A DNA stretch of 64,000 nucleotides, from NCBI RefSeq assembly GCF_900239935.1, contig NZ_LT965928.1, positions 990,197 through 1,054,196 of the forward strand. The letters run 5' to 3'. Origin of the DNA: Pseudoalteromonas carrageenovora IAM 12662 (lineage in GTDB: Bacteria > Pseudomonadota > Gammaproteobacteria > Enterobacterales > Alteromonadaceae). The position numbers were made by a program, and so were the translations under genes. Under the pieces are notes generated by a model. It did not search any database and was not told the origin of the DNA. It worked only from the letters and a program-made list of their open reading frames with translations. Below, one piece after another: positions 2,981 to 35,946 of the stretch. Numbering within the stretch: the first letter of the stretch is position 1; each line of letters starts with the position of its first letter.

Positions 2981-3478
2981 ATGATCACCCTTACCATTAA
3001 TGGTAATAAGCATGAGTTTTCTGGCGACCCGTCTACGCCCGTTTTGTGGTACCTGCGAGATGAATTAAATTTAACGGGCCCTAAATTTGGCTGTGGTATG
3101 GCGCAGTGTGGTGCGTGCACTATACATATAGATGGTGTAGCGCAGCGCTCATGTGTATTACCGGTATCGGCTGTAGTCGGGCGCAATATTACCTCTATTG
3201 AAGGGCTAAGCGAGCAGGGTGACCACCCCGTGCAAAAAGCGTGGGTTGAGCATAAAGTGCCGCAATGTGGATTTTGTCAGTGCGGACAAATTATGCAAGC
3301 GGCAAGCTTATTAGCAGCTAACCCCAACCCAACTGATGATGAAATAGTGAGCAATATGTCGGGCAATATTTGTCGTTGTGGTACATACCCACGTATTCAT
3401 AAAGCGATTAAATCGGCGGCTAAAACCATGGCGGGGGTTGAATATTTTGACCCCAATGAACAAGGGGAAGAGGTATGA
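2981..3478 (+). CDS. 2Fe-2S subunit of a xanthine oxidase-family molybdenum hydroxylase (IorA-like)
   Basis: This 165-residue ferredoxin-type subunit carries both iron-sulfur sites of the family. The plant-type cluster is bound by Cys38, Cys43, Cys46 and Cys58 (CGMAQCGAC pattern), and the second by Cys96, Cys99, Cys131 and Cys133 (CGFCQCGQ and CRCGTYPRI). It passes electrons from the molybdenum centre of its partner. There is no export signal; it would be carried to the periplasm with the Tat-targeted large subunit. AAGGAG at 2969-2974 fixes ATG 2981. The stop overlaps the start of the next gene by four bases (ATGA), so the two are translationally coupled. Confidence 0.95.
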
Positions 3479-5736
3479 AAAACGACAATACGTACTTTGA
3501 CCTAAACCGCCGCCAATTTTTAAAAACTAGCGCAATAGGCGCATTAGTATTAGGCACATATTTTGTAGGCAGTGCGCCAAGAGCGTTTGCCGGTGTGTTA
3601 GAGCAACCATCTGAGCAAGCAAAACGTGCTAACTTATTTATAGCTCTGCGCCCGGATGGCATGGTTGAAATAACCTGCCACCGCTCTGAAATGGGCCAAC
3701 AAATTCGTACAGCCATTGCCCAAATTGTGGCAGACGAAATGGAAGCCGCATGGGATAAAGTAGTTGTTATTCAAGGTAAGGGCGACCCTAAATACGGGGA
3801 TCAAAATACCGATGGATCGCGCAGTATTCGCTACAATATGCAGCGCCTGCGCGAAATGGGCGCAAGTGTACGGTACATGATGCAGCACGCGGCCGCTAAA
3901 TATTGGAAAGTTGAGCCGCAAACCTGTACAGCCAATCAACACGTGGTTACACACAGCTCAGGTAAATCGCTTACTTATAAAGATTTAATCGACTTAGCGC
4001 TTACAATAACGCCACCAGAAGTTGATAAGTTAACACTTAAAACACGCAAAGAATGGCGTTATATAAATACCGGTATGGCGCACATAGATTTAACCGATTT
4101 AGTAACCGGTAAAGCCACATTTGCTGCTGATGTTCGCGAGCCAAAAGCGCTGGTGGCTATTATTGAGCGCCCACCGGTAGTAGGTGGTGTGGTTAAATCG
4201 TTTGATGCCACCGCCGCTAAAGCAATTAATGGTGTAGTTGATGTTATTGAAATGCCTGTACCAAAAGGTGCGCCGCAATTTCAGCCAAAAGGCGGCATTG
4301 CTATTGTTGCTAAAAATACCTGGGCTGCATGGCAGGCGCGTAAAGCACTAAAAGTAGTGTGGGATGATGGTAAAAACGGCAATTATAATTCAGAGAACTT
4401 TAAAAAGTCGTTACTGCAAACAGTGAATGAGCCGCAAGCGCATGTACGCGAAATAGGCGATACCACCAACATATTGGCTAAATCGAGCAATAAGTTAGTA
4501 GCAGACTACTATGCGCCGCACCTAGCTCAAGCACCAATGGAACCACCTTGTGCTACGGCGATGTATCATAAAGACCGCGTAGATATTTGGGCTGCAACAC
4601 AAAACCCACAAGCTGATATGAAAACCGTAGCTGCGTTACTTGGTATGCAAGAGAGCCAAATTAACGTGCATGTCACCATGTTAGGTGGCGGTTTTGGGCG
4701 TAAATCAAAACCTGATTTTTCGGCAGAAGCTGCTTTTATTTCAATGAAAGTGGGTAAACCCATACGCGTACAATGGACGCGAGAGGATGATATTCAGAAC
4801 AGTTTTTATCATGCGGTATCGGCTCAACATATTGAAGCGTCACTCAATGAAAAAGGTAATATTGAGGCTTACTTACATCGCACGGCGTTTTCGCCAATTG
4901 TATCTACGTTTCAAGAAGGGGCAACGACGCCTGCAGGCTTTGAACTGCGCTTAGGCTTTACCGATAACCCTATAAACTCACCTAATCTAAAGCTAGAAAA
5001 TGGCGAAGCACCCGCCAAAACAAGAGTAGGCTGGATGCGCTCGGTATCAAATATTTTTCATGCTTTTGCTATTCAGTCATTTATTGCTGAAGCAGCGCAT
5101 AAAGCAGGGCGTGACCAAAAAGACTATTTACTCGAAACCATAGGCCCTGATCGCATATTAGATGTAACCGAGCAAAATGCGTCGTACGATAATTATGGCG
5201 GCGATAAAGATGTTTACCCATTAGATATTGGTAAGTTACGTCATGTTATTGAAAAAGTAGCTGAAATAAGTAAATGGGGCCGAAAGCTTCCAAAAGGTCG
5301 CGGGTTAGGTATTGCAGCACACCGTAGCTTTTTAACGTATGTGGCAACAGTGGTTGAGGTAGAGGTATCGGATACTGGTGATTTAAACGTGATTAAATCG
5401 TGGGTAGCTATTGATGCGGGTACGGTTGTAAACACCGATACCGTTAAAAACCAAACGCAAGGTGGCTCTATTTACGGTATTACCACTGCAATTAGCGATG
5501 GTATTACTTTTGATAAAGGCCGCGTACAGCAAAGTAATTTTCACGATTATCGCGTACCGCGTATGAGCGATTCCCCACTAGAGGTAGAAGTAGAAATAAT
5601 ACAAAGCGATGCACCACCTGCAGGTGTTGGGGAGCCCGCAACACCGGTTTATGCCCCTGCATTGTGTAATGCTATTTTTGCCGCTTGTGGTAAGCGCATT
5701 AGGCAACTGCCTATAGGTAACCAATTAAAAGCGTAA
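3475..5736 (+). CDS. Molybdopterin-binding subunit of a molybdenum hydroxylase (IorB-like), Tat-exported
   Basis: The 753-residue product begins with a twin-arginine signal (NRRQFLKTS, residues 11-19, then a hydrophobic stretch ending in AFA), so it folds with cofactor in the cytoplasm and is exported. The motif LGGGFGRKS around residue 400 and the C-terminal GVGEPATP with the candidate catalytic glutamate Glu720 are typical of the isoquinoline 1-oxidoreductase/aldehyde dehydrogenase branch. The enzyme would hydroxylate an N-heterocycle or oxidise an aldehyde using the 2Fe-2S partner encoded just upstream. No cytochrome c subunit and no XdhC-type maturation gene is adjacent, so the electron acceptor is unclear. 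Substrate cannot be deduced from sequence. Confidence 0.93.
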
Positions 5737-5764
5737 ATAAACGTACTTTTATTAAAACACTAAG

Positions 5765-5799
5765 CTATTAAACAAAAAAACCGCCAAATGGCGGTTTTA
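5765..5799. terminator. Bidirectional terminator, left copy of a 34-bp direct repeat
   Basis: CCGCC (5781-5785) pairs with GGCGG (5790-5794), flanked by seven A and four T, giving a hairpin able to end transcription from both sides. Bases 5765-5798 are identical to 7410-7443, in the same orientation. Confidence 0.85.
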
Positions 5800-5825
5800 T
5801 CCGTAAGTCTATGTATTTTAAAGAC

Positions 5826-6269
5826 TCATAAATTACATATTTTGCTCACTAAATTTGTATTGATCTGTTCAGGTTTAAAGGCATTAATATGTTTAGGTAT
5901 ATTGGCTTGAGTATATTCTAGAAGGACGTATTCATAAGATTGTGGCTCAATAACTTCCTCAAGTAGATAGTTCTGCTTAGACTTTTTACTGAATAATACT
6001 GAGTAATTTTTTAAATCTGTATGTCTTAATTGGCTGGCTCTATATACATGTAAAAACTCATTGTTTGCGATAACAAAACTATTGAGGATTGATGACCAGT
6101 CTGCATACCACTCAGAATCTTCAAATGGTGTATTTCCTATAATTATAATAGCTTTATCATTATTGTAGTCATCGCATAACTGTTTTTCTGAAGATGTTTG
6201 TTCAGCTGTTGCTACCCAAGCGCAGCCCATTATGCTAAAGGCAAAGCACCCTAATAGGATTTTTTTCAT
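5826..6269 (-). CDS. Small exported protein, possible immunity partner of the upstream M15 peptidase
   Basis: This 147-residue product has a signal sequence (MKKILLGCF, hydrophobic to residue 15). Cleavage could be by signal peptidase I after VATA (residue 22) or, less typically, at a lipobox-like SIMGC with Cys16. The mature part has cysteines 32 and 145 that could form a disulfide. No family is recognised. Its AGGA ribosome site overlaps the stop codon of the peptidase gene nine bases upstream, so the two are expected to be translated together. An exported small protein coupled to a peptidoglycan hydrolase fits a periplasmic immunity protein or inhibitor, but this is inference only. Confidence 0.75.
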   Translation of the reverse strand: MKKILLGCFAFSIMGCAWVATAEQTSSEKQLCDDYNNDKAIIIIGNTPFEDSEWYADWSSILNSFVIANNEFLHVYRASQLRHTDLKNYSVLFSKKSKQNYLLEEVIEPQSYEYVLLEYTQANIPKHINAFKPEQINTNLVSKICNL

Positions 6270-6278
6270 TTTAGTATC

Positions 6279-7178
6279 CTATATAAAAAGTGGAATCATC
6301 TGATTGTTTGAAATTGATGATTGGTTAAAAAAATGCTTGGCTTCATAGTCGAATGTTGAAGCTGAGAGCTGCTTATCGAAGTGAGGAGAATCCATCCTGG
6401 TAAAGTCGCCTCCCCATCGAAGCCCTCTTTTTTTCATTATATCAATAAATTTAACCGCTGAAGTCGTAGCACTTTTAGTTTTAAAGGCGGTTGAGTTGTT
6501 CCAATTAGAGCCATCAACAATATTTAAATCTAAAGCATGCCCAATATAATGTTGGCTGCGTTTTGCTGGCGTTACTACAGCGCCACTTGGAGAAATTCCA
6601 AGCTGTCTTATTGTCTGGTTTAAAACCAATTTTAAGCCTAGTTTTTTTGCTTCAATGTTCATTGCTTTTATCTCAGTAATTAAGGTAGCTGAAACTACAA
6701 ACTCACCTTTCAATACATTTTGGTTCGCAATTAATTTGAAGTTAGGATTAAGCTCTATATTAGTAAAAGTTGCTTCTCTTAACCTTAGCAAGTCACCTGT
6801 ACATCGAAAATTGCTAGCGGCCCAGATATTAAGCTCTCGACGAGTAGCTTTGTCAGTTTGCCCAGAGGTACTTCCTTTAAAAGTTGGCAGTTGATTAATA
6901 ACCCTTAAATTTTTTAATCGATACGGGGCCGATTTTGCGTTCCATTGGAATAACTTTAATGCGTGTGTAGTTTTTAAGCCAAAATCACCATCAATTTTTG
7001 ATTTATATGTTCCTAATTTATTAAGCAGTATTTGTAATTCGGATACAAAAGAGTGATTAGCTATGTGACTTTTTCCTTCCCAGATTTGTTTTTTGTCATT
7101 GTCTCCTCTTTGAAGAGAAAAGCCACCAAATAAATCCGTCACACCAGTTAAAGCTGACACTACAGCATTGTTATTCAT
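6279..7178 (-). CDS. Peptidoglycan-binding M15 family peptidase without signal peptide
   Basis: Residues about 40-80 form a peptidoglycan-binding type 1 domain (LQILLNKLGTYKSKIDGDFG, then ALKLFQWN). Residues about 185-275 form an M15 D-Ala-D-Ala carboxypeptidase / L-Ala-D-Glu endopeptidase domain: zinc ligands His210 and Asp217 in HYIGHALD, the RWGGDF segment at 254-259, and His266 in SPHF. Such enzymes cut peptide stems of the cell wall. The protein begins MNNNAVVSALTG with no signal peptide, as in phage endolysins and type VI secretion effectors. Arginines are largely AGA, AGG or CGA, unlike neighbours. The following gene encodes a coupled exported protein. An effector role is inferred; the domain call is firm. 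Confidence 0.88.
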   Translation of the reverse strand: MNNNAVVSALTGVTDLFGGFSLQRGDNDKKQIWEGKSHIANHSFVSELQILLNKLGTYKSKIDGDFGLKTTHALKLFQWNAKSAPYRLKNLRVINQLPTFKGSTSGQTDKATRRELNIWAASNFRCTGDLLRLREATFTNIELNPNFKLIANQNVLKGEFVVSATLITEIKAMNIEAKKLGLKLVLNQTIRQLGISPSGAVVTPAKRSQHYIGHALDLNIVDGSNWNNSTAFKTKSATTSAVKFIDIMKKRGLRWGGDFTRMDSPHFDKQLSASTFDYEAKHFFNQSSISNNQMIPLFI

Positions 7179-7305
7179 ATAAGTTCCTTTAAATTAATAG
7201 TTAACCGCACTTATTCCATCGCGATCGTTATATTAGCGATAAAAGAATATAACTAAAGATAAAAAATAGGAACAATATTTTTCGTTAAGTCATTATGGAT
7301 ACACC

Positions 7306-7329
7306 GTAAAATTGTAAAATTGTAAAATA
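7306..7329. repeat. Three tandem copies of an 8-bp repeat
   Basis: GTAAAATT, GTAAAATT and GTAAAATA follow one another upstream of the M15 peptidase gene, inside the terminator-bounded islet. The rest of 7179-7409 is AT-rich non-coding sequence that should hold the peptidase promoter on the minus strand. Confidence 0.7.
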
Positions 7330-7409
7330 GATAGTGTCAAAGCCGTAATTTAAACAAATAATTTTAAATTATTTAAGGAAAGCTTTATTCAATTTAATTT
7401 AGGTGGTTT

Positions 7410-7446
7410 CTATTAAACAAAAAAACCGCCAAATGGCGGTTTTTTT
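7410..7446. terminator. Terminator of the csbD-like gene, right copy of the 34-bp direct repeat
   Basis: Same hairpin as at 5765-5798: CCGCC/GGCGG with A and T runs. It ends the minus-strand CsbD-family gene 13 bases after its stop. The whole 34 bp match the left copy without a difference. Confidence 0.85.
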
Positions 7447-7458
7447 AGAAGTTAGCGA

Positions 7459-7656
7459 TTAGTGAGTTTTTTCAAACTCGTCTACTTCACGCTCTGCTTC
7501 TTCTTTAGATTTACCGTACTGCTGCTGGATTTTACCTACTAGCTCTGTACGGCTACCTTCAATTTTGTCTAAATCGTCGTCAGTAAGATCGCCCCATTTT
7601 TGTTGAGCCTTACCTTTAAGTTCGTTCCAATTACCTTTCATACGATCGCTGTTCAT
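7459..7656 (-). CDS. CsbD family stress response protein
   Basis: The 65-residue, highly charged product has the family pattern: MNSDRMKGNWNELKGKAQQKWGDLTDDDL then a GSRTELVGKIQQQYG core and an EAEREVDEF tail. CsbD-like proteins (YjbJ in E. coli) are abundant small cytoplasmic proteins induced by general stress; their molecular role is not settled. AAGGAG lies seven bases before the start. A plausible promoter is TTGGTA (7712-7717) and TATACT (7690-7695) with 16 bases between, read on the minus strand. The gene is monocistronic. Confidence 0.95.
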   Translation of the reverse strand: MNSDRMKGNWNELKGKAQQKWGDLTDDDLDKIEGSRTELVGKIQQQYGKSKEEAEREVDEFEKTH

Positions 7657-7689
7657 AAGTATCTCCTTACTTAGATTTAATTAACGTTC

Positions 7690-7717
7690 AGTATAAAAGG
7701 AGCAAAGCGTGTACCAA
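7690..7717 (-). promoter_or_regulatory. Putative promoter of the csbD-like gene
   Basis: On the minus strand TTGGTA (-35) and TATACT (-10) are separated by 16 bases and lie about 35 bases upstream of the start codon. Confidence 0.5.
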
Positions 7718-7933
7718 TCAGTTAAACTTTTTATTTTATGTTTATAATCATTGGTTTATATATTTAAGCGAGGCGTTACTTTTATTGCAACGCGTATGTT
7801 CTTAAAAAATGTACAGAGCGGTCTGTAATATTTTCGTAGGTTAATTTGCAACTTTGATATAGCTTAATGTAGGTTTTAAGTAGGAATACTATTCATAGGT
7901 ATTCTAAAATTATAAATAAGGAAGGAATACAGA

Positions 7934-8116
7934 ATGGAAAAAGTAAATTTATTAGTGATTTTATCATTTTTTTTCTTGTCGTCAGCAGTGTCGGCTTCAC
8001 CGCTCGTAAAACAATGGGCAGGGTCTGGAATGGATGCTGATAAGTATTTTTGTGAATATGGTGACGGTGAAGTAAAAGTTATATACGGTAATCAAAACTG
8101 CCCATTATCAAACTAA
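7934..8116 (+). CDS. Small exported protein of unknown function
   Basis: This 60-residue product has a convincing signal peptide (EKVNLLVILSFFFLSSAVSA, cleavage near residue 21). The 39-residue mature part includes two cysteines (residues about 39 and 56) that could form a disulfide. A GGAAGG ribosome site lies a few bases before the ATG, and a clear terminator follows the stop, so this is a real single-gene unit despite its size. No family is recognised. Confidence 0.7.
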   Translation: MEKVNLLVILSFFFLSSAVSASPLVKQWAGSGMDADKYFCEYGDGEVKVIYGNQNCPLSN

Positions 8117-8135
8117 TTTAATATATCAATTAACT

Positions 8136-8159
8136 ACCGCAGTATAGCTGCGGTTTTTG
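8136..8159 (+). terminator. Rho-independent terminator
   Basis: ACCGCAG (8136-8142) pairs with CTGCGGT (8148-8154), followed by five T, downstream of the small exported protein gene. Confidence 0.85.
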
Positions 8160-10622: not shown

Positions 10623-10710
10623 GTGTTAGTTATGAAACGTTATTTGTTTGATTATTGAACTTTCTAAGGTAATGTACCTATAAAACACTTTTAGCTACAG
10701 GGAATAGTCA

Positions 10711-11175
10711 ATGAGGTTAGTTTTAACATTAGGTTTGGTATTGGTTGCTACCTTTTCAGCCCAAGCCGAAGAGCCATTTGATTTAAAAGCATTTGCACAG
10801 CATTACTACAACACAATGGTTGCAACACAGGCACCCAACGCAGGCACTAAAGAGCTTGAAGCTTACCTTGCATTGTTAACGGATGATATTGGTAATCAGC
10901 ACATACCGTATCAGCTTGATGACTCTCGCACTGCCGATGGGAAAGAATTAATGCGCAAAGGCATGAGCTTTTACTTAGGCGCGCATACCCTGTATGAAAG
11001 TGAGCTACTCAATACTTTTATATTTAACGATAGCGGTTTTGCGATTCGTTATAAAAACCACGCTAAAGGCATTCACCCACAAAGTAAGCAGCCAATTGAG
11101 TATACCTCAGTAATGATGGAGGTGATCGAAATTGAAAACGCTAAAGTGGCGATGATCCGCAAGTATCACGAATAA
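10711..11175 (+). CDS. Exported SnoaL-like/NTF2-fold protein
   Basis: The 154-residue product has a signal peptide (MRLVLTLGLVLVATFSAQA, cleavage near residue 19). The mature part has the size and pattern of SnoaL-like NTF2-fold domains: an opening helix FAQHYYNTMV, ELEAYLALLTDDI, then beta strands ending in VAMIRKYHE. Such periplasmic proteins are ligand-binding or have unknown catalytic roles; nothing points to a specific substrate. A lipoprotein gene follows after 15 bases and is probably co-transcribed. Confidence 0.75.
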   Translation: MRLVLTLGLVLVATFSAQAEEPFDLKAFAQHYYNTMVATQAPNAGTKELEAYLALLTDDIGNQHIPYQLDDSRTADGKELMRKGMSFYLGAHTLYESELLNTFIFNDSGFAIRYKNHAKGIHPQSKQPIEYTSVMMEVIEIENAKVAMIRKYHE

Positions 11176-11190
11176 TAAATAAGGATATAT

Positions 11191-11535
11191 ATGAAACATT
11201 TACTTATCGCATTATCAATATTAATGCTTAGTGCATGCGTTAGCACAAAAAATGACTTTAGATTTGATGGCTCCACACCTGAGTCTACCCAAGCGGGGGT
11301 TACTAAAGTATTAAAAAAACTGAAACCTAAAGATTCTATGATTTTTATTGGGTCAATAATTGCTATTCAGTTTTCTGATGTGCAAAGCGCAGAAGATGTT
11401 GTTGGCGACCCAACAATGACTAATGAAATAAACTATTTTATTATCGGTAAAAAAATTGATGGCCTAAATTATTACGAAGTACTTGATTTAGCTAAGCGGT
11501 CACAAAATACATTTACTATTGTAGAAGCTCAGTAG
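11191..11535 (+). CDS. Small lipoprotein of unknown function
   Basis: This 114-residue product begins MKHLLIALSILMLSAC: a lipobox LSAC with lipidated Cys16. The mature domain has regular alternating strands and helices (GVTKVLKKLKPKDSMIFIGSI) and no cysteines. The start is supported by AAGGA upstream. It follows the SnoaL-like gene by 15 bases, suggesting a two-gene unit at the cell envelope. No family is recognised. Confidence 0.75.
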   Translation: MKHLLIALSILMLSACVSTKNDFRFDGSTPESTQAGVTKVLKKLKPKDSMIFIGSIIAIQFSDVQSAEDVVGDPTMTNEINYFIIGKKIDGLNYYEVLDLAKRSQNTFTIVEAQ

Positions 11536-11607
11536 GCTTAAAATGTGCGCCGATATTGTGATCTCATTGGCGCTATATAGACAATACTTATTAACTCACT
11601 TTATTAG

Positions 11608-11823
11608 TTAAACCTCTTTACCATCGTGTTGCTCGGCTAAATCATCAAGCTCAGCAGAGGTATAATCAAACCCACTCTCATCATACTCATAAGTTACTTT
11701 TACACTGTCGCCGCCGTTAAATAGGCGTGTTTTAACATCGCTTATGGGCCAGTCTTTTAGTACATGCACGAATCTGTTAGCAACTTGTGAAGATTCAAAA
11801 CGGTAGCGAATTTCTGTTTTCAT
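11608..11823 (-). CDS. Small acidic conserved hypothetical protein
   Basis: I start this at the internal ATG (MKTEIRYRFESSQVANRF), giving 71 residues; ten extra residues upstream (start 11853) look like read-through of the leader. The product is soluble, acidic at the C terminus (SAELDDLAEQHDGKEV) and has an RRM-like order of one helix between strands. No function is assigned. It is transcribed toward the SnoaL/lipoprotein pair and stands alone. Confidence 0.6.
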   Translation of the reverse strand: MKTEIRYRFESSQVANRFVHVLKDWPISDVKTRLFNGGDSVKVTYEYDESGFDYTSAELDDLAEQHDGKEV

Positions 11824-11992
11824 AAATAATAAGGCTCTGGCTATAAACCCCACTAAAACTGCATTGTTAATGGGGCGTTCATGATTCGGTTACAAAAAAT
11901 AAAGAGTCAAATTGTAAATTTTGTGTTTCAATAATTGCATTAAACTCGGTACAGCTTAACGTACTATAATTAACAAATAACGACGACTTTAC

Positions 11993-27209: not shown

Positions 27210-28739
27210 TTACTTAGCCTTACTGTTATTTTTAGTATCCGTTTTACTTTTTGTTCGAGTAACTTTTTGAGTACCCCCAACGTGCTTTTTAAGAATTTTC
27301 CCTATGGCGCGTTTAACATCGGCTCGCTCACGGTATTGCCATAAGCGTTCGCGTGCTTCTTTTGAGGCTGCTGTTAAATCAAGCATGGGTTCGGGATAAT
27401 CCTCCCCTAATTTAAAGTCGTTAAAGAGTGCTTCCATTGGAGTTTGCTCCCAAGGCTGATGTAAATATTCAATAGGGAGTTTTTCAAGCTCTGGGCACCA
27501 CTTTTTAATAAACGAGCCTGTTGGGTCTTGATCTTCTGACTGCTTAATTGGGTTGTAGTGCCTAATGGTGTTAATGCCTGTTACCGAGGCTTGCATTTGA
27601 ATTTGCGGGTAGTGAATTCCGGGCTCAAAATCTAAAAAGTAATTAGCGAGCGGAAAGCTTGCTTGCTGCCAACTTATATTTAAATGATGGGTTACAAAGC
27701 TTACAAGCATGGCGCGCATTCTAAAGTTTATATAACCGGTGGCTTTTAAGCAGCGCATGCAAGCGTCAATAATGGGAATACCTGTTTGACCTTGCGCCCA
27801 GCGTTCAATATCGTTTTTAACATGTTCATCATCGCGATACGGAAATACGTGATAACCCGAATTAAGGGCTAAAAATTCCATAGAGCATTCGCTTTCAAAC
27901 TTTTGCATAAAGTGGCAGTGCCAATGCAAGCGCGATACAAACGCAGCAAGCGGGCGCTTCCAGCCTCTTTTATCGGGGTGCTTTGAGTGATATTCATCAA
28001 TTGCCATTTGATACACTTGCCTAAGGCTAATGTTCCCCCACGCTAAATAAGGCGAAAGCCGAGAGCAATGGGTTTGGCTTAAACTTGGGCTCGATATTCC
28101 TTTTTGATAACCTTTACCGCGCTCGGTAAAAAAGCTCTGCATTACTTGGCGTGCATGCAACGGGCCGCCTTGTTGAAAGCTGTCGTGATCTTGCGTGTAA
28201 GCGCTTGGCAGCTCAGGTGCTTGGTAGTTATTGAGGGTAATTGTTTTTATACTCTTCCAATTAGGAACAGCAATAGGTGCTTGCATTGTTTGCTGCCAGC
28301 GTTCATTCCAGTTATTACGATTTTTTTTGCCGCGAATAACCGCGCCTGTTTGCGACTCTTGCCAATTAATGTGGTTATGCTGGCACCATACTTTTATTGC
28401 CTTATCGCGCTCAAAGGTGTTGTTTAAGCCTATTTCTTGATGGCTAAAAATATTAACTATTTCAAACTGCGTCTTTATCGACTCAAGTAAATCGTTCATA
28501 TTTAAATTAAATATATAAACACAGGCGTTAAAACGCGCTAGCTGATTATTTAACTCAACTATCGATTGATACACAAAGCGCCAGTGCCGTTCATTGTAGT
28601 GTGCATCTTCGAGCAGTAATGGCTCAAAGTTATAAAATAACAGGGTCGGTAAGCCATTACTAAATGCATTTTTTAATGGTTGATGATCGCTAAGACGTAA
28701 ATCACGTTTAAACCACACGATGTTTATTTTTTCTTTCAT
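27210..28739 (-). CDS. phr: Cryptochrome/DNA photolyase family flavoprotein
   Basis: The 509-residue protein has the N-terminal photolyase fold ([18 protein letters not shown]) and the C-terminal FAD-binding helical domain ([56 protein letters not shown]). The last 20 residues are Lys/Thr-rich. It uses blue light and FAD, either to repair pyrimidine dimers or to signal. The TGYINFRMR segment differs from classical PhrB (TGWMHNRLRM), so it belongs to another branch of the family. A DUF2256 gene is coupled downstream. The palindrome AATACGTATT lies at 28786-28795, upstream of the start. Confidence 0.88.
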
Positions 28740-29184
28740 ACTGGCAATATTAAAACCGTGGCATTATAAATAATAGGACAAAACCAATACGTATTAAATG
28801 TAAAAGAAGACTAGTGTAAAAACGATTTTGATATAGGCAACTCATGTTAAGGTGATACTAAAATGAGTCGCCAATAAAAGAAGTATTATAAATAGGGAGA
28901 ATTACCGTGATACTTAAGCAATTTTGGCACTTGCAGTCATGTGAGAGTACACCTATTAAAGCTTCACCAATTGCAACTACTTCCATTATCTTTTCCTAAA
29001 ACTTGCGAGGGTATCGCTTTGTATGACGATACCCTCAGTTAGGGTAAAATTAAAAACGCTTACCAATAGTAAAGCTAAAGACACGAGATATGACAACGCG
29101 CGCATTAAATATAATTGATTGATCTGCTACCGTTTCACCTGAGTGAAACTTCCCTCTGATAAGTTTCCTGAGTTATTTAGGTTT
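28740..29184. other. Intergenic region with photolyase promoter and duplication remnant
   Basis: The left part (28740-28931) holds the photolyase promoter region on the minus strand with the palindrome AATACGTATT, plus a plus-strand promoter-like TATTATAAAT and AGGGAGA before a GTG at 28907 that looks like a cut gene start. From 28932 onward it is a degraded copy of the receptor/kinase junction listed separately. Confidence 0.6.
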
Positions 29185-29201
29185 TTAACATCGACACGAA
29201 G
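28932..29201 (-). pseudogene. Remnant copy of the TonB-receptor tail and sugar-kinase head
   Basis: These 270 bases match 30123-30393 with about 30 differences by eye and one 1-base gap. Read on the minus strand they contain the last ~50 codons of the receptor (29201 to 29052, frameshifted by the gap), the intergenic hairpin, and the first 18-19 codons of the kinase (ATG at 28986, MEVVAIGEALI). The kinase part stops abruptly at 28932. It records a partial tandem duplication of a unit of about 1.19 kb. Confidence 0.9.
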
Positions 29202-30177
29202 ATTTAAGGGTACTCGCCGAGATATCATGGTATGTAGGTAGGGCATCAAAGGCTCCAAACGTTGCTACTGTTTTGGCTCCGCATTTAGTAGCAAAGTCGA
29301 TAGCCTTTGAAACGTTAGTAAAGTTATTTGCCCAGTCAGTAAATTCTGTTTTATTACTCACTAGCGAAGATATTTGATATAAAAAACCACCTACAAACGC
29401 ATCGCCTGCAGCTGTGGTATCCACAACATATGCCTTAGGGCAAGGATAAGTACCACTAAATGAGCTAGATGAAAAAGTAATAGGCTCGCCACCATCGGTC
29501 ATTAAAACTAAAGCTACGCCACTATCTACCCAACTTCTAATAGTGGTATCAATATGCTCTATTCCATAAAGCGAGATCAGCTCATCTTTACTCGCTTTAA
29601 TAACATCAACTGTTTTAGCAACATCCTCAATAACAGATTTAGCTGTGAGTGGTTCATCCCAGAAGGCTGAACGAAAGTTAATGTCAAAGCATGTAACCGA
29701 GCCTGATTCTTTAAAGTGTTTTAGCGCATGTAAGGTTGTATTTAATACTAAAGGTTTTGCAAAAGAGCCTGAACAAAAACTCACAATTTTAGGTGTTGAA
29801 AATAAAGAGGGCTCTAAATCGGTTATTTGTAAATCGTAATGTGCAGCATCTTTATCGTAAAATTCAAATGTACGTTCACCGTTTTCATCCAACGATACGA
29901 ACGCGAGTGCCGTCTTCCCTTTTTTTGAAAAGCCAACATAAGATGTGTTTACATTATACATTTTGAGTGCATTTATTAAAAAGCGACCAAATTTATCATT
30001 GCCTACTTTACCAAGCAAATAACTTGAACCACCAAGCTTTGCTACGGCTACAGCAACATTAGCGGGTGCGCCTCCGGCAAACTGTGTGAAGTCTAGTTCG
30101 CTATTTGATGCCTTATTGTGCATGCAGTCATGTGAGAGTATATCTATTAAAGCTTCACCAATTGCAACTACTTCCAT
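29185..30177 (-). CDS. PfkB family sugar kinase (fructokinase-like)
   Basis: The 330-residue ribokinase-fold enzyme starts MEVVAIGEALIDIL, shows the substrate-site FAGGAPANVAVAVAKLGG near residue 33, and the ATP/catalytic motif DTTAAGDAFVGGFL near residue 250, where the Asp of AAGD is the base. It phosphorylates a hexose, probably fructose, after uptake. It lies 63 bases downstream of the TonB receptor in the same direction. Its last six residues and stop come from a fused copy of the receptor's 3' end, so the native C terminus was replaced; the core is intact and likely active. Confidence 0.92.
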   Translation of the reverse strand: MEVVAIGEALIDILSHDCMHNKASNSELDFTQFAGGAPANVAVAVAKLGGSSYLLGKVGNDKFGRFLINALKMYNVNTSYVGFSKKGKTALAFVSLDENGERTFEFYDKDAAHYDLQITDLEPSLFSTPKIVSFCSGSFAKPLVLNTTLHALKHFKESGSVTCFDINFRSAFWDEPLTAKSVIEDVAKTVDVIKASKDELISLYGIEHIDTTIRSWVDSGVALVLMTDGGEPITFSSSSFSGTYPCPKAYVVDTTAAGDAFVGGFLYQISSLVSNKTEFTDWANNFTNVSKAIDFATKCGAKTVATFGAFDALPTYHDISASTLKSSCRC

Positions 30178-30393
30178 TATATTTTCCTAAAAATTGCGAG
30201 GGTATCGCTTTGCATGACGATACCCTAGATTAGAGTAAAATTAAAAACGCTTACCAATAGTAAGGCTAAAGGTACGAGGTAAGACAACGCGCGCATTAAA
30301 TGTAGTTGCTTGACCTGCTACCGTTTCCCCTGCGCGAGGATCCCCCTCTGATAAGCCTTCTGAGTTATTTAGGTTTTTAACATCGGCACGAAG
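30123..30393. repeat. Parental copy of the duplicated receptor/kinase junction
   Basis: Direct repeat of 28932-29201, spaced by about 1.19 kb. It spans the first 18 kinase codons, the intergenic hairpin (GGGTATCG and CGATACCC at 30200-30226) and the last 50 codons of the receptor. Confidence 0.9.
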
Positions 30394-32829
30394 GTAATAA
30401 CCGTCTTCGTTTTCAAGGGATAAACCAAGGTTTAACATGCCATACATAGGCAGTTCTGCTGTGTTGGCGTCGTCGGCATAACGTTTACCGCTCCAAGAGT
30501 AGCTACCATGAATAGCTGCCATACCCCACGAAAAATCTTCAAACTGATAGCTACTAGTTAATTGGCCAAAGTGCTTAGGCACACGTACAGGTAAGTTGCC
30601 GTTTATATCAATAGAGGCAGAGCTTCCATTAGCATCCAAGTATTGCGCCGCTGGTGTGTTTACAAATTCGGGTGATTGGTACGTTGCAGATACACCAATG
30701 CGCCAGTCTTGGGTGATTTGCAGGTTAAATTCGGCTTCTACACCTAAGGTTTCTGTGTTTCTAAAGGCTTGACGTTGCACTACTTGACCATTTTCAACAG
30801 TAGGTACATTAAAGAATAAATCATCCGCAGCGGCGAAGTAACCGGTTACAAATGCTGCGACATCACCTTCGTTATATTTAATGCCCACCTCGGCCATTAC
30901 CGTTGAAGCTGGTTGTGTTTCGCGTCTCTCAGAGTTATTAAATTGATTAATTTCCTCTTGACTAGTTAGGTTGGTAATCGCCATGTATTTATCTACATCA
31001 GGCATACGAAAACCATCTGCATATCGAGTGAATACCGCTAAGTCGTCGTTAAATTTGTAGTTAGCTGCAATTGTCCATGCCATTTCGTTGTATTCAACAT
31101 CAAAGTTTCGGTAAGTCCCATCACCAAAGGGCAGGGTAATATTCCCATTGACGGTATCAGTATCGCTGGCAAAACTGTCAATTGTGTAATTAGCTTGGTT
31201 TTGCGCTTCCCCATCTGCTTTGAGGGTTTCGTACCTTAGGCCCAGATTAAACGACACATCTTCAAGATCGTATTCAAAGTCAGCAAAGGGCGCAAGGGTA
31301 TTTTCACTATAAACAATATCGGCAAAACCATGTGATCCAGCCTGAATACCTTTGTAAGTACCGCTGGCAATGTCAAGACCTTGTGCATCTGTAAATACAA
31401 CATCTAAGCGCTGCGGCAGGGGCTCTACTGATTGCAGAGTATTAATTCGATAGTCGGTAACATGGCCATTAATATTAGAGAAGAATAAGCCAAAATTAGC
31501 ATAAAGAGTCCCTTCGCCTACATCATCAAAGGTGTAGTTGAATCTGGTTTCGTTTTGAAAGTTATCGCCTTCAAAACGTCTATGCCAAAAGCCTGCGTTT
31601 ATTCCGTATCCATTGGTGTTGTAGGTATTTACGTTGCTTGAATCAGCCAATACAAAGCCGTTTCCTGCATCGCGTATATCGTAACTTGGGTTACCATCAA
31701 CCATGGCACCTGCAAGGACATCAGTATTTGCAGCATATATAGCTTGTGCTTTACTAGCTAACGATTCGGCGTTACCTACGTTAATGATGCCGGTAAAGGT
31801 TGTTAGCATATCGGTATAACGCATTTGATTTGAAAAGACTAAGTTTTCGTTGATTTCAATTTCGGTTGTATTGCCAAAGTAGGTCACATTAGCGTAGTTA
31901 CCATCTGCAATATCCAAATCAATGTCGCCGCTTGGGGCGTTATTAAGAGTTAATAAACGCGCACCTGCTGAGTTACCGGTGGTGCCATCTCTGATATCCA
32001 TCCCGCCTGGGATTGTTTTAGCATTGGTGGTTGAGCCTATTAATGGCTGAGGAATAAAAAAGAATGATCTATCGTTTTGTTTATTAAACTCAAAGCGGGT
32101 AAAGCCGCTGCCATCTTTAAAAAAGTGCTTAATATTACCATTAAGCTCACCACCTTGGTTAGCTGTATACCCCGGATCGCGTGCGGAGTCATCCTTGCGA
32201 TACCAAGCGCCAACAGCATAGGTTGTCTGATCGTCTATTGATCCGCTAACCCAACCTTGTCCACCTAGGCGGTTGTTGCTGTTGGTTTCAAAAAACACAT
32301 CACCTTGGGTATCATCGGAGCCTTCACGAGAAATAAAATTAATAAACCCAGCTGGCGCGCTACCAACAAAAATTGACGAGGCACCACCACGAATAGCTTC
32401 AACGCTGCCCACAAAATTAGACAAACGGGTAAAGCGATCATTTTGAGTAAATAAAATATCTTGATTATAAAACACGGTCATACCATCACGAAGTAGTGCT
32501 GTAAACTCTGTTTGCGTTGATAACGGAAAGCCTCGTGGGGCTACGTTGTTACCGGTTTCTCCACCGGTGTCTTCGGCATGAAAACCAGGAATACTTCGCA
32601 CTAATTCAGCAACACTGTGCGGAGCCAATTGCTCTAACTTTGCTTCGTTAAAGGTAGTTATTGCATTAGTTGATTCGATTTTCTCTTTTGGCCGAGATGT
32701 TCCCGTTACAATGATGCGCTCAAACCCTAAATCACTTTTTGCTACTTGTTGCTCTTGTGACAAGACGCTAGGGGATATGGATAGACCTACAGCGACTGCA
32801 ATTAGAGTCATTTTTGCTGATACTTTCAT
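30241..32829 (-). CDS. TonB-dependent receptor, likely for a sugar or oligosaccharide
   Basis: The 862-residue outer-membrane receptor has a signal peptide (residues 1-24), a TonB-box-like FERIIVTGT, a plug (ELVRSIPGFHAEDTGG, VEAIRGGASSIFVGSAPAGFINFISR) and a long barrel ending TFSLTIGKRF. Its neighbours, a PfkB kinase downstream, and a ROK repressor and FucP-type symporter upstream, make it the outer-membrane step of a hexose or hexoside uptake system; the substrate itself is not readable. Two copies of the palindrome ACAAATTTG lie at 32860-32868 and 32900-32908 in its promoter region. Confidence 0.93.
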   Translation of the reverse strand: MKVSAKMTLIAVAVGLSISPSVLSQEQQVAKSDLGFERIIVTGTSRPKEKIESTNAITTFNEAKLEQLAPHSVAELVRSIPGFHAEDTGGETGNNVAPRGFPLSTQTEFTALLRDGMTVFYNQDILFTQNDRFTRLSNFVGSVEAIRGGASSIFVGSAPAGFINFISREGSDDTQGDVFFETNSNNRLGGQGWVSGSIDDQTTYAVGAWYRKDDSARDPGYTANQGGELNGNIKHFFKDGSGFTRFEFNKQNDRSFFFIPQPLIGSTTNAKTIPGGMDIRDGTTGNSAGARLLTLNNAPSGDIDLDIADGNYANVTYFGNTTEIEINENLVFSNQMRYTDMLTTFTGIINVGNAESLASKAQAIYAANTDVLAGAMVDGNPSYDIRDAGNGFVLADSSNVNTYNTNGYGINAGFWHRRFEGDNFQNETRFNYTFDDVGEGTLYANFGLFFSNINGHVTDYRINTLQSVEPLPQRLDVVFTDAQGLDIASGTYKGIQAGSHGFADIVYSENTLAPFADFEYDLEDVSFNLGLRYETLKADGEAQNQANYTIDSFASDTDTVNGNITLPFGDGTYRNFDVEYNEMAWTIAANYKFNDDLAVFTRYADGFRMPDVDKYMAITNLTSQEEINQFNNSERRETQPASTVMAEVGIKYNEGDVAAFVTGYFAAADDLFFNVPTVENGQVVQRQAFRNTETLGVEAEFNLQITQDWRIGVSATYQSPEFVNTPAAQYLDANGSSASIDINGNLPVRVPKHFGQLTSSYQFEDFSWGMAAIHGSYSWSGKRYADDANTAELPMYGMLNLGLSLENEDGYYLRADVKNLNNSEGLSEGDPRAGETVAGQATTFNARVVLPRTFSLTIGKRF

Positions 32830-33018
32830 TTTTCTGTTCTCTCTTTGTTGTGTGTGTATACAAATTTGCGGTTTTATTAATCAAACATGTCAGTGTTATC
32901 AAATTTGTAAATAGAATGTAGAGAACTTAAAATAATAAATCAACTATTATTACTTATTATTTTTTGTACAGCTTTTTGATTGTTTAAGTGAATTTTTTAC
33001 CTCTGATAAAAAATAAAT

Positions 33019-33050
33019 AAGCAGCCAACGTTACCGATGGCTGCTTTTTA
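33019..33050. terminator. Terminator after the ROK repressor gene
   Basis: AAGCAGCC (33019-33026) pairs with GGCTGCTT (33039-33046), with T on the plus side and A/T-rich sequence on the minus side, between the repressor stop and the receptor promoter. Confidence 0.75.
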
Positions 33051-33063
33051 ACTTTAAAGTATA

Positions 33064-34278
33064 TTAGTGGTGTGAAAGGCTTGCGTGATCTTGAGAAAAG
33101 TTGATAAGTAACGGAAGGTTAGCGCAGCCTACTGATTGAGCCTTGGCGCCAATAGAGCCACTTTGTACTTCACAGCGATTAATACCGCGATGATCAGCCT
33201 GGCTCAATTTTAACTTTGTTGCCAAAACTATTTTTTCTCTGACATTGATAGGAATGGCGCCATCAATGACAATTGCCTCAAAATCAAAAATAGCTAAAGA
33301 ACACAATGCCGCGTAGGCGAGGCCATCTGCAACTTGGTCTATCCACTTATCGAGTACGGGGCCTAAGTCTCCCCAATACTCTTTTGAACTCCATAGTATG
33401 TCAGTATTGTAGCCATCACCTTTGAGCATTTTTTCGAGAATATACAGTGATGATTGCATAATAAGTTGTTGGGAGGTTAGTTGTCCTTCACTATTAAGCA
33501 TAGGCCTAGGTAATGAACCTATAGCGCCGGCATTACCTTTTTTACCAGTAAATAAGGTTTCGTTTATAACAACTCCACCACCAATAAAAGTACCAATAAA
33601 AATATATAAAAAATCGCTAAAACGAGCAGGATTACCAAAGCTTAATTCAGCTGAACAAGCAGCGGTATCATCATTACATACATACACGGGAAGATGTACA
33701 ATTTGATTTATTTTTTCTTTAAAATCAAAAGACTTCCATTCATTCAATACTGTTTTTGGAGCGCCGGCTTCTTCTGTCCAGTTCCAAATTTCGTAAGGGG
33801 TTGCAACACCCACACCTAAGATACGCTTGGCTAATTCGTCACTTAAGCTCATTTTAAGTACGCTGATCCCTTTCTCTAAAAAGGTTAGCAAGCTCTGTAC
33901 TGTGGGGTAAGCGCAGTTTTCGTGCAAAGTTGCGCGTATATTTCCTACTAAGTCAATCAAGGTTAAATCAAAACTGCGACGACCTACTTTTAAGCCAATT
34001 CCAAATGCACCATCTGGATTTAACGCAAATGGGATGGTTGGTTGGCCAACCTTACCACGCTGAGGGTCTTTCCGTATTAATAACGATTCGGCTTCTAAAC
34101 TATTGATAATTACTGTGACGGCCTGTGCTGAAAGCCCTGTTTTTTGTGCAATTTCAGCTTTTGGAGCACTACCGTGTTGGCGAATTAATGACATAATTCG
34201 GCGTTCATTATGAGCACGCAGGCCAGATTGGCTTCGGCCTTCTTGTAAAGAGAGTCGAGGGTTTTTAGATTTGATAAT
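33064..34278 (-). CDS. ROK family transcriptional regulator (apparent non-AUG start)
   Basis: The protein has an N-terminal winged helix (KAEIAQKTGLSAQAVTVIINSLEAESLL) and a ROK sugar-kinase-like domain (GIGLKVGRRSFDLTLIDL, GTFIGGGVVINETLFTGKKGNAGAIGSLP). The first ATG (34194) would cut the first helix; the frame upstream encodes GLRAHNERRIMSLIRQHG, the usual ROK start region, and is open to a TAG just above 34287. No ATG, GTG or TTG exists there; ATT at 34278, ATA at 34281 or ATC at 34275 follow an AGGTAGGA ribosome site. Coordinates assume ATT. It probably represses the kinase, receptor and divergent symporter in the absence of sugar. The cysteines of the usual ROK zinc motif are not evident. 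Confidence 0.85.
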   Translation of the reverse strand: MIKSKNPRLSLQEGRSQSGLRAHNERRIMSLIRQHGSAPKAEIAQKTGLSAQAVTVIINSLEAESLLIRKDPQRGKVGQPTIPFALNPDGAFGIGLKVGRRSFDLTLIDLVGNIRATLHENCAYPTVQSLLTFLEKGISVLKMSLSDELAKRILGVGVATPYEIWNWTEEAGAPKTVLNEWKSFDFKEKINQIVHLPVYVCNDDTAACSAELSFGNPARFSDFLYIFIGTFIGGGVVINETLFTGKKGNAGAIGSLPRPMLNSEGQLTSQQLIMQSSLYILEKMLKGDGYNTDILWSSKEYWGDLGPVLDKWIDQVADGLAYAALCSLAIFDFEAIVIDGAIPINVREKIVLATKLKLSQADHRGINRCEVQSGSIGAKAQSVGCANLPLLINFSQDHASLSHH

Positions 34279-34458
34279 TATTCCTACCTAGTTGTTATTA
34301 TCTTGAATAACCTGATTAATTGTACACCGAGTGTGTGTAATTGGCGACTATATTAGCTTTATTGCCGGGTTCATTTCTTATTATTAAATTTACGACAGAG
34401 TATAAATAAGTCACAGGAGGTCAATAAATAACTATAGTTGATTTATTGACGGAATGAT

Positions 34459-34474
34459 ATTTAACTGGTTAAAT
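34459..34474. promoter_or_regulatory. Candidate operator of the ROK regulator
   Basis: ATTTAAC and GTTAAAT form 7-bp inverted arms around TG, 34 bases before the symporter start, between the divergent repressor and symporter genes. Confidence 0.45.
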
Positions 34475-34507
34475 GCTTTACTTAACATTAACAACTGAGA
34501 CACGGCA

Positions 34508-35815
34508 ATGACCACACACACACACACACAAACACCTCTTGTCTCCAAGGAGATGGTGGTTCCCTTTATTTTACTTGTTCTGTGCTTTGCTGCATGGGGA
34601 GCTGCGGCAAACATGACTGATCCGCTAGTAAAAGTGTTTAGTAAAATTTTTACTATGTCGTCAGTGCAGTCTGCATTGGTACAATTTAGCTACTATGGAG
34701 CTTACTTTTGCCTAGCTATTCCGGCGGCATATATCAATAAACGCTTTTCGTATAAAACAGGTGTGTTAACCGGTTTAGGGATGGCTGCAATCGGAGCATT
34801 TTTGTTTTATCCCGCCAGCCAAGCAATGACTTATGGTTTTTTTTTAGTGGCTTTGTTTGTGTTAGCTGGAGGCTTATCTATTTTAGAGACATCAGCAAAC
34901 CCTTATGTAATGGGAATGGGCACCCAACAAGGTGCAACTCGCAGGTTGAATTTGGCGCAATCATTTAACCCTGTCGGTACTAACATTGGTGTTTTTTTAG
35001 CCGCTACCCTTATTTTACCAAAGCTCAATACAGCAACCTCTGGTGAGCGCACAAATATGAATAGTGAGCAATTAACTAGCATTATAAGCGCAGAACTTGA
35101 TGCAGTTATGGTGCCTTATGTTGGTATGGCTTGTGTGTTGGTTTTTATTTGGTTGGCAATTGCGTTTACTAAAACACCTAATTTTTGTAAGCAAAAAAAA
35201 GTCTCTAAGCATGTAGAATTTAGTGCAACGTTTAAGCGTTTGTTTAAAAATACCCATTACCGCTTTGGTGTTATCGCCCAGTTTTTTAATGTTGCGGCGC
35301 AAACTTGTGTATGGACATTTACCATCCAGTACGTAATGGAGGCACTCGATACAAATGAAGTTACTGGGGGAAGTATTTTACAATACAGTATGATCACCTT
35401 TTTAGTTTCTCGATTTGTAATGACCTGGCTTATGGGATTTATTCGTCCTGCCAAACTGTTAATGGCAACCTCTATTATTGCAATGCTGCTGTGTTTTTAT
35501 ATGGTGAAAATGCCAAATATAAGTGGCGTATGGGCGCTGGTAAGTATATCGGCTTGCTTGTCGTTAATGTTTCCAACTATTTACGCGATTTCACTACATG
35601 GGTTAGGCGATGATGCAAAACTAGGTGCTGCTGGTTTAGTAATGGCTATTTTAGGTGGAGCGATAGTTCCTGTATTCCAAGCTGTGTTTATTGATACATA
35701 CAGTGTCGCGTTTTCTTATGTTGTGCCTGCGGGGTGTTTTATTATTGTTGCAGCTTATGCTGCATTTGATTTAAAAACAAAAGTCAGAGTATTCAATAAT
35801 GTAGCGCCTTGCTAA
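34508..35815 (+). CDS. FucP family sugar:proton symporter
   Basis: The 435-residue, 12-segment membrane protein belongs to the FucP/GluP branch of the major facilitators: FAAWGAAANMTDPLVKVF in helix 1, SYYGAYFCLAIPAAYINKRFSYKTG in helix 2 and LAGGLSILETSANPYV in helix 4, the last being diagnostic. It imports a hexose (fucose, glucose, galactose, fructose or mannose in known members) with protons. It is divergent from the ROK gene. The coding sequence begins with a (CA)9 tract at 34513-34530 (Thr/His codons); a slip of one unit would shift the frame, so on/off switching is possible. Confidence 0.93.
   Translation: MTTHTHTQTPLVSKEMVVPFILLVLCFAAWGAAANMTDPLVKVFSKIFTMSSVQSALVQFSYYGAYFCLAIPAAYINKRFSYKTGVLTGLGMAAIGAFLFYPASQAMTYGFFLVALFVLAGGLSILETSANPYVMGMGTQQGATRRLNLAQSFNPVGTNIGVFLAATLILPKLNTATSGERTNMNSEQLTSIISAELDAVMVPYVGMACVLVFIWLAIAFTKTPNFCKQKKVSKHVEFSATFKRLFKNTHYRFGVIAQFFNVAAQTCVWTFTIQYVMEALDTNEVTGGSILQYSMITFLVSRFVMTWLMGFIRPAKLLMATSIIAMLLCFYMVKMPNISGVWALVSISACLSLMFPTIYAISLHGLGDDAKLGAAGLVMAILGGAIVPVFQAVFIDTYSVAFSYVVPAGCFIIVAAYAAFDLKTKVRVFNNVAPC
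34513..34530 (+). repeat. (CA)9 microsatellite within the symporter gene
   Basis: Nine CA units start five bases after the first base of the ATG. Change by one unit would put the gene out of frame. Confidence 0.9.
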
Positions 35816-35823
35816 ATGGATTG

Positions 35824-35851
35824 AAAACCGAGCCTGAAGGCTCGGTTTTAC
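35824..35851 (+). terminator. Rho-independent terminator
   Basis: AAAACCGAGCC pairs with GGCTCGGTTTT around TGAA, nine bases after the symporter stop. Confidence 0.93.
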
Positions 35852-35946
35852 TTTTTAACTTTTCTCATTTGTAAATCTTCTTTAACCCCAACCTTCATCG
35901 GATTAAGATATTAGGCATGTTGATATTCTTATTTAGTTGAAAAAAT

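Follow-up and report, generated by a model that had tools for sequence, protein, structure and literature searches.

The 1,611-bp islet at positions 5799-7409 of the window (the whole 64,000-nucleotide stretch of Pseudoalteromonas carrageenovora IAM 12662 analyzed here) was gained at a hotspot for insertions, between two conserved, convergent genes, and is bounded on each side by a copy of the same 34-bp sequence. The left neighbor is an iorB-like molybdopterin oxidoreductase gene (3475-5736, + strand; ORF list, Pfam, and genus comparison) and the right one codes for a CsbD-like protein (7459-7656, - strand; PF05532, E = 1.6e-20), which adjoins iorB in relatives with an empty site. The proposal that we favor, with modest confidence, is that the gap is a hotspot of the minimal mobile element type at which cargo docks at the convergent terminator, the present cargo most likely being a type VI secretion system (T6SS) effector and its immunity protein.

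The two 34-mers (5765-5798 and 7410-7443, both on the + strand) are exactly identical and in the same orientation, as the first-pass annotation had stated, with starts 1,645 bp apart. They were the only copies in the window when up to three mismatches were allowed, and none appeared in 100 shuffles. We also scanned for exact direct repeats of at least 16 bp, separated by 0.1 to 10 kb. The scan covered the window, an 80-kb stretch of each of five relatives, five shorter loci from relatives, and 34 kb on the second contig of this genome. Within the window, the only repeats longer than 16 bp were the 34-bp pair and one tandem duplication at 28.9 to 30.4 kb, while the stretches from relatives and from the second contig contained none. 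A chance repeat was rejected, the pair being far above the background of both shuffles and repeat scan.

On folding, both copies gave the same hairpin, with a T-tract after it whichever strand was read (on the + strand, -13.7 and -16.2 kcal/mol, z-scores of -4.83 and -4.29), in agreement with the claim that each is a terminator, though in a simple consensus scan of 5700-7700 the left copy alone, on the - strand, was called terminator-like (two found versus 1.6 expected). The left hairpin (5777-5798) would be the shared terminator of iorB (+ strand) and the islet operon (- strand), and the right one (7419-7446) that of csbD (- strand). The hairpin class AAAACCGCCN{3,5}GGCGGTTTT occurs six times in the 4.58-Mb genome, two of them at the islet (control, zero), with the same loop, on either strand, in four of the six members. 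It is also rare across the genus, at 0 to 6 per genome among the matches listed. A genome-wide repeat was rejected on these counts, and the terminator is not the common sequence that would have spoken against an islet.

The islet has two ORFs, both on the - strand, and a GC content of 33.1% versus 39.4% for the window. AGA, AGG, or CGA encode 13 of the 15 arginines of the two genes, which bears out the codon bias initially noticed. A promoter-like site (TTGACA-18-TACAAT, 7311-7340, - strand) precedes the first gene; it is a consensus match only (11/12), and the promoter scan found seven sites versus 7.0 expected, with no excess over chance. This first gene (6279-7178, - strand) codes for a 299-aa M15 peptidase with a peptidoglycan-binding domain (PF13539, E = 7.6e-13; PF01471, E = 5.3e-8), for which we propose an antibacterial effector role. 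Its structure model had a pLDDT of 89.6 and endolysin Ply500 as best PDB match, the catalytic residues H209, D216, D262, and H265, zinc ligands among them, were invariant across 34 aligned sequences, and no signal peptide was evident by eye. Among the 36 homologues found, the closest (96%) is a record named MULTISPECIES Pseudoalteromonas, so further strains of the genus carry the protein, followed by one from Agarivorans (64%) and others at ca. 50% or less. No full-length relative occurred in the 107 further genomes of the genus (1 of 108 including this genome), where G049 gave a match of 45 residues; such a relative was found in 1 of 395 family genomes, and a profile search of the order recovered it in 3 of 394, plus two partial matches. 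We rejected an origin of the cargo from a phage or plasmid, since 50,697 phage and 72,556 plasmid records gave no match and a scan of viral contigs confirmed no relative, and also a defense system (no PADLOC match).

The second gene (5826-6269, - strand) encodes a 147-aa partner, with five homologues, among them P0039 at 86%, that we propose as an immunity protein. Its N terminus resembles a lipoprotein signal with a lipobox-like start, read by eye. It had no Pfam family, and its model (pLDDT of 77) gave no PDB match at an E value of 0.001 or better; the best hit, a weak one, was a thioredoxin-like fold, which says nothing on immunity. In two further genomes (G587 and G582) a small gene comes directly after the M15 gene, and its product has 45% and 27% identity, respectively, with the partner. 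The two genes were adjacent in all three genomes examined, which belong to three families and have unrelated neighboring genes. The G587 pair sits behind a hairpin that is unrelated, with no duplicated terminator seen by eye, which counts against the docking proposal. Adjoining the pair in G582 (locus L168, 7031-7695), one gene shows up as two short ORFs and is possibly broken.

Judged by gene content and distribution, the two genes probably code for a T6SS effector and the matching immunity protein: an M15 peptidase that would be delivered to other bacteria, and a small, secreted-looking protein that would guard the producer. In a comparison based on five genomes, the sheath gene VipB was present in all three carriers of the pair (this genome, G000, together with G582 and G587) and absent in the two non-carriers tested (G037 and G097). 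The cluster of this genome includes TssM, VipA, VipB, TssF, Hcp, VgrG, DotU, and a Rhs nuclease gene; it sits on another contig, far from the islet pair. That cluster (loci L169 and L170, contig 2, 262 to 296 kb) has two adjacent VipB-like genes, and its Rhs protein ends in a nonspecific endonuclease domain. An M15 peptidase with LysM has been reported as a T6SS effector of Neisseria in the excerpt of PMC10210955. As far as the excerpts describe them, this effector and Tae17 of Acinetobacter (PMC11796386) resemble the islet pair in combining peptidoglycan-binding and hydrolase domains with an immunity gene alongside; the candidate pair differs in standing alone, distant from the T6SS cluster. 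A cell wall housekeeping or lytic, endolysin-like function is a possible but rather doubtful reading of the same two genes. Endolysins, too, can have M15 and PG_binding_1 domains, and the Ply500 fold match points the same way; against this stand the lack of relatives in the phage, plasmid, and viral-contig searches, the partner gene that accompanies the M15 gene in three families, and the sheath genes of all three carriers.

Turning to the site, a close iorB was found in 16 genomes of the genus; 12 of these lack the islet, and in them iorB and csbD converge on one terminator with no scar, the single-terminator state that had been predicted as the one without the islet. Retention of the two genes and of both terminators by every relative, which would have refuted the islet, was not seen. 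The match to the empty-site alleles (best 4 of 12) extends over 31 bp at the left repeat copy and 52 bp at the right one, the 34-mer having three bases (CTA) beyond the 31 bp in common. The left flank has about ten additional bases upstream relative to the empty alleles, which are from other species.

A different cargo at the same site, also anticipated in the first-pass annotation, was found in H71, where a 4.7-kb gene with PKD repeats lies between two hairpins in the same gap. Pfam assigned PKD families to one half of its product and none to the other; relatives (45% and 35%) occurred in two of the 108 genus genomes besides H71, and a search for the donor of this cargo among those 108 gave only such distant relatives. 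The H71 hairpins are hybrids with 11 bp in common. The left one is native through CCGCCA and foreign afterwards (loop ATAA), the insert supplying its own 3' arm and T-tract (GGCGGTTTTTT), and the right one is native from AAAAACCGCC onward. Such an arrangement would result if two terminators had recombined by a single crossover within the 5' arm, or by two crossovers with a doubly terminated donor. These hybrid hairpins are the only direct sign that the terminator may serve as a recombination point. Altogether, the same hairpin has received two different cargoes and one insertion sequence (IS) in 16 genomes.

The sequence of events that we propose would begin with foreign DNA carrying a complete gene or operon entering the single terminator between iorB and csbD. 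Recombination would use the short homology common to terminators (the A-tract, the CCGCC/GGCGG arms, and the T-tract), presumably by general recombination, e.g., after DNA uptake, rather than by a dedicated enzyme, and would leave a terminator on both sides of the cargo. By analogy with H71, we infer that the 34-bp duplication also originated by a crossover through the terminator in this genome. The two terminators would keep iorB, csbD, and the cargo transcriptionally separate, so such insertions should be cheap. The 34-bp identity counts against the proposal, being longer than the 11 bp of H71; given this difference, and with empty alleles compared from other species only, the two events may differ. 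Stretches of 11 bp are short for RecA-type recombination. The initial reading of an insertion that uses or duplicates a terminator stands as regards the gain of the islet, while the junctions of this genome do not decide between the terminator as a recombination site and its duplication by some other repair.

Break repair is an unlikely route to the same junctions: the palindrome would be cut or would stall replication, foreign DNA would be captured, and end processing would copy the 34 bp without homology to a donor. The strength of the palindrome on folding fits such an origin, as does a repeat that spans the hairpin together with native sequence to its left, but the 3' arm and T-tract that the H71 insert brought along would be unexpected for homology-free capture.

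Quite improbable, in our view, is a non-autonomous cassette inserted by a hairpin-recognizing integrase or transposase acting in trans, the repeat being an att core or target duplication. No mobility gene was found in the islet with the ORF list and Pfam scan, which agrees with the earlier claim that it has no recombinase of its own, and the Pfam scan gave no integrase. An enzyme in trans is consistent with an identical 34-bp core whose flanks differ on both sides, with the three insertions at one hairpin, and with an IS4-family element of the genus that targets terminator hairpins. However, the islet ends have no terminal inverted repeats, only the hairpins themselves pairing across the islet, and a repeat of 11 bp in H71 versus 34 bp here leaves no fixed core. 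For the islet as a transposon or IS, the lack of end inverted repeats and of a target duplication of fixed length led to rejection. The IS4-family element (1,435 bp) inserts in the loop of rho-independent terminator hairpins, as seen in all six copies with both ends placed among nine examined (L012, 8298-8379, in G079; L198, L199, L200, L201, L202, and L204 in G087). Its 8- to 9-bp loop duplications fit neither islet.

A long shot is that terminator hairpins are portable docking sites, at which a recombination activity, possibly a hairpin-recognizing enzyme in trans, would insert whole terminated genes into resident terminators, as cassettes that can swap or excise via the duplicated hairpin, integron-like without attC; if true, every neighbor would retain its own terminator after each insertion. 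Last, that the islet is ancestral and was lost by most relatives is highly implausible, because even if precise deletion between 34-bp direct repeats is possible and the empty sites have no scar, the single full-length M15 gene in the genus and family genomes would require many independent losses, and this rarity, the low GC, and the rare arginine codons make a gain simpler.

Outside the islet, the window has other variable places. Close by, at 7836-8151, a small insertion of 316 bp takes the place of ca. 50 bp in relatives; it includes a 60-aa ORF (7934-8116) as well as a hairpin of its own (ACCGC..GCGGT). The region at 10632-11886 is variable, with up to ca. 7 kb more in relatives, and 28733-35941 is a 7.2-kb insertion versus 84 to 190 bp in five relatives, inside which lies the tandem duplication (28932-30385, spacing ca. 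1.19 kb). In the 64 kb compared with five relatives, by 17 hand-picked indel comparisons and the repeat scan, no other insertion with duplicated terminators was found, so we do not claim the process as general. Were it general, terminators would be docking points as well as insulation, and effector/immunity cassettes gained in this way could be recognized from the simple signature of a duplicated terminator. As a candidate antibacterial pair present in three families of bacteria, the cargo is also of interest in itself.

Accessory genes are frequent between convergent genes, and their route of entry without a recombinase is seldom visible. Group IIC introns adjoin terminators and are like the islet in having the terminator as target, but the islet has no intron or reverse transcriptase by ORF list and Pfam. 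Palindrome-targeting ISs, such as the REP-targeting ones that include IS4-family members (excerpt of PMC1525189), likewise make a hairpin an insertion hotspot. In Neisseria, inverted pairs of the DNA uptake sequence serve as terminators according to the excerpt of PMC10210955, a similar tie between terminator hairpins and gene exchange; the hairpin at the iorB-csbD site differs in belonging to a rare class and is not known to contain an uptake sequence. A search of open-licence papers with strict terms found no description of terminator-borne cassettes, of recombination at terminators, or of terminator-targeting ISs. The minimal mobile element of Saunders and Snyder reportedly moves by homologous recombination via conserved neighboring genes. 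The first-pass annotation knew of no described element of this kind, but the Neisseria minimal mobile element (Saunders and Snyder 2002), as defined in the excerpt of PMC3898611, fits in large part, since it too is a gap between two conserved genes holding strain-specific whole-gene cassettes with no mobility genes. At the iorB-csbD site, these features are the flanks conserved in 12 of 16 genomes and a content that is the M15 pair here, the PKD-repeat gene in H71, and nothing in 12. The definition in that excerpt admits solely homologous recombination, which may apply at this site too; the H71 junctions are hybrid hairpins with 11 bp in common. A difference is that at our site the duplicated terminator holds the junctions. 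We file the site as a variant of the minimal mobile element in which the terminator, and not the neighboring genes, marks the junctions. Among 16 genomes, one hairpin has taken three different insertions, and terminators are hybrid or duplicated at two of these, which suggests that a terminator can be a junction; the terminator itself as junction is what is new here.
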